This document shows, one piece after another, positions 8,701 through 11,714 of a DNA stretch of 64,000 nt. The position numbers were made by a program, and so were the translations under genes. The DNA comes from Bdellovibrio sp. (GTDB lineage Bacteria; Bdellovibrionota; Bacteriovoracia; Bacteriovoracales; Bacteriovoracaceae). The notes beneath the pieces are model-generated. The model worked only from the letters and a program-made list of their open reading frames with translations, ran no database searches and had not been told where the DNA came from. Numbering within the stretch: the stretch's first letter is position 1; each line of letters starts with the position of its first letter. Where the stretch lies: positions 1 to 64,000 of the forward strand of contig JACPIU010000012.1 in the NCBI GenBank assembly GCA_016187935.1, in the 5' to 3' direction.

Positions 8701-9324
8701 TTACACTTGGTGCAGTTTGTTTGTCACAACTTGGGCAATGTACTGACGGAACTGCGAGATAATGCTGTCATTGATGCGGTCAATATAATCTGGATGAGTT
8801 GGAATGAGGTCGTAGAGAATTCGTTCCAATCCGGAGTGAATGGTTTGAACCTCGAGGTACAACTTCACAAAATACTCAAGATTGGCCTTATGCCAGTGAA
8901 CGAGCAGGGGAGTCAGGTCGCTATGTCCTTCGCAGCTTGAGCAACCGGAGCATTCACCATCATGCATAATATAATTCATATGATTTTGGGTATGAATATT
9001 AACCAGTTGGTCGCGATCGCTTTGCCCATCTGCAAATTTATCCAGAAGTCGAATGGCCACATCGGGATGCTGCTTTAAAGTGAGAAACAACTCCTCGTAA
9101 ATGGTCGTATACAGGGCGGTAAAAATGATGTCTTCCATCAGATATTCCATCAATTTCCGCGGTGTCTCGGCAGTTTTTTCAACTTTAGCTAGCGCCACCA
9201 AAGCTTGATTGTAGGCGTAGTTTGTGGTCCCTTCGAAGGAATGGAAAAAATGCACAAAACTATTGAGGGTTTCCTCGTCTTGATAGATTTGGCGCTTGTT
9301 AACTTTGTCTTTTTCGATTGTCAT
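8701..9324 (-). CDS. Helical protein with CxxCxxCxxH cluster (hypothetical)
   Basis: The cytoplasmic-looking protein of 207 residues is predicted mostly helical. It carries a striking cluster ECSGCSSCEGH at about residues 124-134 (Cys 125, 128, 131 and His 134), with further His residues at about 111, 115 and 121, so a metal or iron-sulphur site is plausible. There is no signal peptide. The start ATG at 9324 has GGATGAGG upstream. I do not recognise a family. The gene stands first in a short operon with the downstream lipoprotein gene. Confidence 0.7.
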   Translation of the reverse strand: MTIEKDKVNKRQIYQDEETLNSFVHFFHSFEGTTNYAYNQALVALAKVEKTAETPRKLMEYLMEDIIFTALYTTIYEELFLTLKQHPDVAIRLLDKFADGQSDRDQLVNIHTQNHMNYIMHDGECSGCSSCEGHSDLTPLLVHWHKANLEYFVKLYLEVQTIHSGLERILYDLIPTHPDYIDRINDSIISQFRQYIAQVVTNKLHQV

Positions 9325-9352
9325 AGGTGGACCTCATCCTTAAGGGCCTAAA

Positions 9353-9367
9353 TTAGCTTTATGCTAA
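9353..9367 (-). promoter_or_regulatory. Inverted repeat in the 5' leader of the Cys-cluster gene
   Basis: TTAGC, five bases, GCTAA: a perfect 5-bp inverted repeat about 30 bp upstream of the start of the minus-strand gene at 9324. It could be an operator or a small hairpin in the leader. No clear sigma-70 promoter was seen beside it. Confidence 0.3.
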
Positions 9368-9465
9368 CATGCAGGGCCAATGCTGTCAGAACGATTGCAA
9401 AAGGGGAAGGGCTTGCCTAGCCGAGCATTGTAGTCGGAAAATAATGGTCCATTGTCTTCACGTGC

Positions 9466-9492
9466 AAAAAAAAAGGGGGCCTTACACCCCCC
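9466..9492 (-). terminator. Rho-independent terminator, minus strand
   Basis: Read on the minus strand, GGGGGG, a loop TGTAAGG and CCCCC are followed directly by nine T residues. This is a textbook intrinsic terminator and one of very few in the window. It would end transcription coming from the non-coding region to its right (9500-9900), so that RNA is a separate unit and does not read into the gene at 9324. Confidence 0.8.
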
Positions 9493-9629
9493 TGCGCCGA
9501 ACATCATTTCTAAGAAATTTGTTTGGCGATAAGCATTTTATTCAAATAATTTCGGCCTAAGGCCGACAAAAAAACCACAGTCAATGGAAGATCATCCCTG
9601 ATAACGAATAAATTTTAAAAGAGGCGTCA

Positions 9630-9701
9630 CTAACGTCCTGGAGGTGCACCTAAGAAGAATTCGTGGATGGGAAAACTCCTCATCACACGTAAATCAATCA
9701 T
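9630..9701 (-). CDS. Short ORF (23 aa) ending in FFLGAPPGR
   Basis: ATG at 9701 is preceded by AGGGAG at 6-base spacing, the best ribosome binding site in the region. The 23-codon frame encodes a peptide beginning MIDLRV and ending FFLGAPPGR, then TAG directly followed by TGA. The Pro-Pro-Gly triplet is a strong EF-P-dependent ribosome pausing motif, and APP resembles arrest motifs in known stalling peptides. A palindrome AGGTGCACCT lies in the GAPP codons (9641-9650). It could be a stalling leader peptide, a small functional peptide, or chance; no homologue is known to me. Confidence 0.4.
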   Translation of the reverse strand: MIDLRVMRSFPIHEFFLGAPPGR

Positions 9702-10046
9702 TAGCAGCTCCCTGGTTAAAGTAAAAAAAACTTAAAAACACATAAACAAAACAAACATATACGACTAGGGGCCACGCACGCTTACAGTCCAAATAGCAAA
9801 ATCAGCCCCACGCGGCATATACAAAAAACAAAACGAGAAGCAAACAGAATCAAGCAAATATTAAATAATCTCACTCGCCGCTCTGTGATTATGGCATAGT
9901 TCATTTTTTTACCGATGAAAAAAAAAACGGGGGTTCAAAATATTTTTAACTTATGGATTTTCTGTGAGAGGCTTTCGCAAGTTTGGTTTTTTGTGTAAAA
10001 GTTAGACGGTCAAAATGTCGTGATTCCTGACACAAAAAACAAAAGT

Positions 10047-10071
10047 GGGCACTTTTTAAAAAAAATGTCCC
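10047..10071. promoter_or_regulatory. Imperfect inverted repeat upstream of the two-component operon
   Basis: GGGCACTTTTT and AAAAATGTCCC form an imperfect inverted repeat about 55-80 bp before the histidine kinase start. It might be a regulator-binding site, for example for the OmpR-type regulator encoded downstream. A further small hairpin (GAAGT, AGG, ACTTC at 10096-10108) sits next to the start region. Confidence 0.3.
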
Positions 10072-10124
10072 GATATTGGCAAGAAAATGACAAAAGAAGT
10101 AGGACTTCTTGATAGGTTGAAAAC

Positions 10125-11714
10125 ATGAGAGCGTATGTTGCCCTAATAGGAGTGGCAGTTTTAATGGCCTTTTTGGCCGGGGGGACGCTGCTCCTCATGC
10201 GAAATAATGAGAGACTGGTGTCCAGTCAGGATATGGCCGCCATCTCCCAATTGAAGTTGGCCTTCCAAAGGGAAGTGGGGCCAATATCAATTATTAATAT
10301 TTCTTCCTATTACTACACCAACCATCACTTTAAATTGACCTCTCCCATTTATGCCTTGTCGGAATTTGACCGAACTGATCCCAGTTTTTATGCCCATCCG
10401 GGCGACTGTTTCAAGGGCGTCCCTGAATTACAAGGTCTGTTTGGTCATCGCAAATTGGTTTTATGGGAAGAATTTCGCTGCGGAATGCGTCCCCATCTGC
10501 CATCGGAGTTCTTTGAGGAACCACCTTTCTTGCACCCCTCTGGGATCAGCTTTATGTACTTGGCCTATTTAACCGGAAGGTCCCAATATCGGGAGATGAA
10601 TTGGATTATTGATCGATTACCACTCTTTCATGTGCGTGAATTAAAAAATATTACCGAGCTTAAGGGGCGGCTTCGAGGAGTGTTTTTGATTTTATCAGAG
10701 TTAAGTGAAGAGGAATTGGAATCAGTGGCGCGGGGCCAAGGTTCTGTTTTAACCGGTAAATATTTATTGGCAAGGTTGATCTACAAACACGCCCAAGGAA
10801 TTCTGGAATATAGAGTTTATGATCGTGCCGATCTCGATCAATTTTTAAGTGAAGCGGATTATACTTTGAGCAAATATAATAACAAGAGACTTTGTTTTTT
10901 CCGTGATGAAGAATTATGCTGGTCTCCCAATTCCAAAAAAATCCTTGAAAGGCTGAATATTTCCCAAATTTTTATTTTCATCGGTTGCCTTTTTTTGATG
11001 GTCGTGGCACTGGTTGGTTTGCGTAATCGCTTACGCGATGATCGTTCCGAGGAGGAGAGTAAACGTTTGGCCCTTCAGACTTTAACTCACGAATTGCGCA
11101 CTCCGATCACTTCTTTGGTGCTGGAAAGTGAAAATGTGTCACGAGATCTTGAACAACTTCCTGCAGATATGCAGGATTCATTTTTACGTATGAGCAGTGA
11201 AATTCATCGGCTCCAGCGTTTGACCGAGGCCTCACGACAATATCTCAATGTGGGAAGGAAAAAAGGAAAAGTTCAATTAAATCCCGTGCAAATCCCTTCG
11301 ATTAACGAATTTTTAATGGATGTCACTCGTTCCTTTTTAGACAAGGGCTTGATCTTTAAAAACACCATTGAAGACAGACCGTTTGTCATGGATTCATACT
11401 GGCCATCTATCGTATTAAAGAATTTATTGGAAAATGCTTTTACTCATGGCGTTCCTCCGGTTGAAATGCTGGTGGAATTTTCTTCCGGTAAATTGATTGT
11501 TTCCGTTAAGGATCAGGGGGATGGAGCAGCGTTAAATGGGCTTAAAATTGGTCAGGAATTTCAAAAAGGCCAAAAAAGTTCCGGCACAGGGCTTGGACTA
11601 TCCATTGTAAAACGTGCCATTCTTGCTATGGGAGGAGAGTTAAAATATAGCAAAAGGCCCACCACCTTTAGCGTGATCTTGAAAGAATTAAAAATTTCTA
11701 CACAAGGAGTTTAA
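10125..11714 (+). CDS. Membrane sensor histidine kinase
   Basis: The protein of 529 residues has TM1 (about 5-25), a large sensor region (about 28-278) outside the membrane with four Cys residues (95, 119, 257 and 265) and TM2 (about 281-299). The kinase core follows: H-box LTHELRTP with His 322, N-box NLLENAFTHG, DQGDG and GTGLGLSIV ATP-lid motifs. It autophosphorylates and passes phosphate to the regulator encoded 1 bp downstream. The sensor region, with FLHPSGISFMYLAY, reminds me of the DUF3404 type of VxrA-like kinases that respond to envelope stress, but I hold this lightly. The ligand is unknown. Confidence 0.9.
   Translation: MRAYVALIGVAVLMAFLAGGTLLLMRNNERLVSSQDMAAISQLKLAFQREVGPISIINISSYYYTNHHFKLTSPIYALSEFDRTDPSFYAHPGDCFKGVPELQGLFGHRKLVLWEEFRCGMRPHLPSEFFEEPPFLHPSGISFMYLAYLTGRSQYREMNWIIDRLPLFHVRELKNITELKGRLRGVFLILSELSEEELESVARGQGSVLTGKYLLARLIYKHAQGILEYRVYDRADLDQFLSEADYTLSKYNNKRLCFFRDEELCWSPNSKKILERLNISQIFIFIGCLFLMVVALVGLRNRLRDDRSEEESKRLALQTLTHELRTPITSLVLESENVSRDLEQLPADMQDSFLRMSSEIHRLQRLTEASRQYLNVGRKKGKVQLNPVQIPSINEFLMDVTRSFLDKGLIFKNTIEDRPFVMDSYWPSIVLKNLLENAFTHGVPPVEMLVEFSSGKLIVSVKDQGDGAALNGLKIGQEFQKGQKSSGTGLGLSIVKRAILAMGGELKYSKRPTTFSVILKELKISTQGV

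Follow-up and report, generated by a model that had tools for sequence, protein, structure and literature searches.

A probable peptide-coding small RNA gene, restricted to one genus, beside a predicted VxrA-like sensor kinase gene in little-known relatives of predatory bacteria

Peptide-coding small RNA genes are a known class that includes VcdRP, AzuCR, and SgrS/SgrT, all of which act by base-pairing, in the case of VcdRP (which has an ORF of 29 aa) with Hfq (PMC8672173). Such genes often escape annotation, and descriptions from Bdellovibrionota are scarce. In this broad bacterial group, attack-phase small RNAs of Bdellovibrio bacteriovorus, merRNA among them, are reported to be non-coding (PMC3627812). 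Another small RNA, VadR of Vibrio cholerae, is activated by VxrB, according to the portion of PMC7695739 drawn on here.

Here we describe a unit from the little-known relatives of these predatory bacteria, located in a window of 64,000 nt (i.e. the whole stretch of DNA analysed). Likened by layout and not by sequence, it resembles VcdRP, AzuCR, and SgrS/SgrT in being a small, free-standing RNA that has a promoter and terminator to itself (here predicted), a short ORF, and further conserved sequence (PMC8672173), but differs from them in that no Hfq was found. It shares with merRNA and the attack-phase small RNAs (PMC3627812) a lineage-restricted distribution within the same broad group, but it carries an ORF and gives no match to a c-di-GMP riboswitch in the Rfam search. 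As with VadR, a small RNA goes together with a VxrAB-type two-component system, here by adjoining the VxrA-like kinase genes; unlike VadR, for which the same portion of PMC7695739 describes no coding role, this unit lacks a response-regulator box at its promoter. Our preferred reading, to which we give a probability of roughly 0.7 (dual-function and plain peptide-mRNA forms taken together), is that the unit is a stand-alone, conserved, genus-restricted gene for a peptide-coding small RNA. The class is known; what is new is a lineage-specific example without known relatives.

The unit occupies the minus strand of an 800-bp gap (9325–10124) between the gene of a 207-aa protein (8701–9324, minus strand) and a kinase gene (10125–11714, plus strand). 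The earlier note had proposed a self-contained, undescribed RNA here, and every feature it claimed in the gap (ORF with its Shine-Dalgarno [SD] sequence, hairpin at 9552–9566, 5' stem, terminator) is located on the minus strand. In the mechanism we propose, RNA polymerase would start near 9880, just after a sequence that fits an extended -10 promoter (TGCCATAATCACA, 9884–9896), and stop at the terminator (9465–9493), giving an RNA of ∼415 nt. This predicted promoter is an island identical in all three genomes compared (below) amid weakly conserved DNA; a -35 consensus was not found there. The RNA would then bear an SD and a 23-codon ORF, preceded by a U-rich unstructured leader (9717–9755, U-rich in 3 of 3 genomes despite differing sequence) and followed by ∼137 nt of 3' region in which two hairpins are conserved, as are unpaired stretches. 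It is most likely translated into a micropeptide, while the conserved 3' region could have a second role, either in stability or in regulation at the RNA level, by analogy with dual-function small RNAs that encode a peptide.

Among the relatives searched, strong DNA matches come only from G001 and G002, the remaining two genomes of the genus, where the unit is flanked by the same two genes in the same position and order. Identities (window–G002, window–G001, and G002–G001, in that order) are 90, 80, and 77% for the SD and ORF and 78, 82, and 81% for the 3' region with the terminator, compared with 78, 70, and 71% for the kinase gene, 85, 76, and 78% for the 207-aa gene, 53, 30, and 47% for the 5' leader, and 61, 38, and 43% for the DNA between the terminator and the 207-aa gene. 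The SD-to-terminator core (77–90%) is thus about as conserved as the neighboring protein genes, or better, while the flanking non-coding DNA (30–61%) is far less so. That G001 and G002 both carry this core in the corresponding position makes the unit more than a chance arrangement. The promoter island, SD, ORF, 3' hairpin, and terminator are all kept in the three species and Rfam holds no match, so the proposal of a self-contained undescribed RNA is supported. The 17-bp 5' stem named in the same proposal fares less well: it is present in the window (9756–9821; 16 main pairs with mismatches, -22.9 kcal/mol for 9752–9825, z = -1.65, a fold equaled by 11 of 200 shuffles and weak alone) and shared with G002 (z = -2.4), but absent in G001 (z = +1.0). 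Because one species of the three lacks it, we take the conserved core to begin at the SD.

The ORF (9701–9630) has AGGGAG six bases ahead of its ATG (9708–9713; AAGGAG in G001), and the SD, length, and frame are kept in all three genomes. The window's peptide, MIDLRVMRSFPIHEFFLGAPPGR, and those of the two sister genomes, MIVLRVMRSFPIHEFFLGAPPGR and MKIDRAMRSFPIHEFCVGAPPGR, share the pattern M-x3-R-x-MRSFPIHEF-x2-GAPPGR, and the PPG motif is retained in 3 of 3 genomes while a proline codon shifts synonymously from CCT to CCC. Over the whole ORF, amino-acid changes are fewer than chance would give (P = 0.008, three sequences). Specifically, codons 5–23 show 3 such changes against 7.0 expected when the observed numbers of changes are placed at random (P = 0.006); this segment was picked after viewing the alignment, a choice on which the whole-ORF value does not depend. 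Neither of the remaining forward frames in the region shows protein-level constraint (P = 0.64 and 0.36). These comparisons, of three sequences only, support protein-level selection on the last 19 codons. The unit, on few sequences, thus has two traits of a peptide-coding small RNA: a short ORF with an SD that appears to be selected as protein, and its own (predicted) promoter together with an intrinsic terminator.

Downstream of the ORF, a small GC hairpin (UCGGCCUUAGGCCGA, 9552–9566, z = -3.1) has a counterpart at the equivalent place in 3 of 3 genomes, its closing pair being altered on both sides in one of them. A second hairpin (CGCCAAACA..UGUUCGGCG, 9495–9528, z = -3.3), which is an addition to those listed in the earlier note, directly precedes the terminator and shows in G002 one compensatory change from A-U to G-C and one change from G-C to G-U. 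The segment of SD and ORF folds with z-scores of -2.1, -1.6, and -2.5 in the three genomes. Taken whole, the 3' region is not more stably folded than shuffled sequence, and the unpaired stretches conserved within it may therefore count for more than its structure. Covariation and selection tests alike draw on three genomes of one genus and are hence thin.

We next consider how much of this RNA matters beyond the peptide. A plain mRNA, in which only the 23-aa product counts and the remainder is ordinary UTR, is a possible though somewhat unlikely alternative. It would account for the good SD, the U-rich leader, and the protein-level selection, and it agrees with the finding of neither Hfq nor ProQ to serve a base-pairing RNA: Hfq (PF17209) has no match in 59 family genomes and ProQ none in the window's genome, with control genomes positive in both searches. 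CsrA is present in the genome. Against such an mRNA, the 3' region is conserved like the ORF, unpaired stretches included, which exceeds what a UTR usually needs. A second function of the peptide-coding RNA is plausible. The unit has clear boundaries, an apparently selected peptide, a conserved non-coding half, and an adjacent predicted envelope-stress sensor, and as the lineage yielded no Hfq in the search, it would allow a test of whether this protein is dispensable for dual-function small RNAs.

The boundaries bear on a different alternative. The terminator has an 8-pair stem (9473–9493, -13.9 kcal/mol) followed by a T run and is found in 3 of 3 genomes with a changed stem; between 8500 and 10800 there are 7 terminator-like sites versus 2.2 expected, 3 of the 7 being variants of this one. 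From its position ahead of the next gene, it had been argued that the unit is not simply a long 5' UTR. This does not follow, as attenuators share such a layout. What argues for a self-contained unit is the separate promoter predicted behind the terminator, CTGACA-17-TAGCAT (9361–9389, minus strand), which matches the consensus, lies in a region conserved in all three genomes, and would serve the 207-aa gene. A leader-peptide attenuator, in which a ribosome on the PPG-ending ORF decides between termination at 9465–9493 and read-through into the 207-aa gene, would explain why ORF, terminator, and gene follow one another on one strand and why PPG, a ribosome-pausing motif, is kept in every genome. 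However, with a conserved promoter of its own predicted for that gene, the terminator would not lie in the sole transcript leading to it. In addition, ORF and terminator are 137 nt apart, the folds show no prominent alternative pairing that could act as an antiterminator, and the spacer from terminator to gene is poorly conserved and varies from 139 to 222 nt among the three genomes. We regard attenuation of the 207-aa gene as improbable, and a peptide-coding small RNA gene as the likelier reading.

Equally improbable is a non-coding regulatory RNA whose ORF is an accident, kept merely through the RNA hairpin it contains (CGUG..CACG, 9662–9689): the pairs of this hairpin are indeed invariant and its substitutions confined to two unpaired bases, but the SD, both ends of the ORF (start and stop), and the frame are retained as well, and beyond the hairpin the differences favor synonymous changes in the ORF frame only.

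The reading as a peptide-coding small RNA gene is thus carried by a place and order shared among three species, the identity of the core, frame-specific selection, the predicted promoters, the compensatory change, and the lack of a known family. Weighing against it are the number of genomes (three), a 3' region that folds like shuffles, the negative searches for Hfq and ProQ, and the missing box at the small RNA promoter.

Searches for relatives elsewhere agree with a narrow distribution. Rfam covariance models give no match at the gathering threshold within the window, and the sub-threshold matches in the gap were rejected as chance-like; no tmRNA was found either. Phages, plasmids, and IMG/VR contain no match to the unit. 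In GTDB r220, a degenerate peptide pattern, which would miss more diverged peptides, matches only the two sister genomes. The earlier note had proposed a covariance search across Bdellovibrionota, and a model of the SD-to-terminator core, run on 125 family and 291 phylum genomes, scores ∼300 bits in its three source genomes and at most 26 bits elsewhere. The weak matches to this model beyond the genus that were inspected are terminators of other genes or coding-like DNA. The weak hits that the peptide gave in further genomes of the family were rejected on inspection, being random sequence or unrelated, except that those in L034, L036, and L038 were rejected on E-values of 0.2–0.6, the sequence inspected there not being centred on the match. 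Genus-restricted is the best reading for this putative peptide-coding small RNA gene, which on present evidence is a sound but lineage-restricted one.

The divergent neighbor encodes a kinase with HisKA, HATPase_c, and DUF3404 domains, whose best NCBIfam match is VxrA (9.5e-50, far below the equivalog cut-off), and is followed by the gene of an OmpR/PhoB-type regulator; searching PDB with the sequence of the kinase's sensor returned no match. By these similarities, it is a predicted VxrA-like sensor kinase of a VxrAB-like envelope-stress two-component system. Across the family (L078–L100), TTGACA repeats 11 bp apart are seen ∼50–80 bp ahead of the kinase start codons. Specifically, 18 of 23 orthologue upstream regions, several of them from close relatives and hence not 23 independent cases, have repeats with a start-to-start spacing of 11 and at most 3 mismatches. 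Mean best mismatches are 2.2 at this spacing, compared with 3.7–4.3 at other spacings and 4.4 in shuffles. The repeats fit the VxrB motif of Vibrio, given as TTGACAAAA-N2-TTGAC in the portion of PMC7695739 drawn on here, and are a probable autoregulation site. In the window, the corresponding probable response-regulator box is TTGGCAAGAAAATGACA (10076–10092, plus strand) at the kinase promoter, which is outside the RNA and kept in the three genomes. Taken alone, the likeness of 10076–10091 to the VxrB motif is no better than chance across the window, so the box is credible only through the family-wide 11-bp spacing. Its second half-site may coincide with a -35 element.

This box is the sole good conserved one and is ∼200 bp away from where the small RNA would start. 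No good regulator box was found at the small RNA promoter, where an RNA activated in the manner of VadR would have response-regulator sites, which leaves regulation of the small RNA by this protein unsupported. The RNA may, on weak support, be part of the adjoining VxrAB-like circuit. As a long shot, the PPG-ending micropeptide could control its own ribosome or the VxrA-like kinase while the 3' half acts as an Hfq-free regulatory RNA, the two forming a genus-specific envelope-stress arm. Between the kinase and small RNA promoters, a palindrome (AAAGTGGGCACTTT, 10042–10055) is perfectly conserved in 3 of 3 genomes; as a regulon site it gains no support, with 3 places in the genome versus 2 for a control pattern.

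On the other side of the unit, the 207-aa protein has a CxxC-rich centre and belongs to an uncharacterised family, with no match in Pfam or NCBIfam and homologues in 47 of the 125 family genomes. In two other genera (L126 and L128), three genes lie between the kinase and the homologue of this protein, named by eye as exonuclease-like, membrane protein, and aldo/keto-reductase-like. The window's genus lacks these genes at that point, and the small RNA thus occupies the part of the locus in which this genus departs from the other two.
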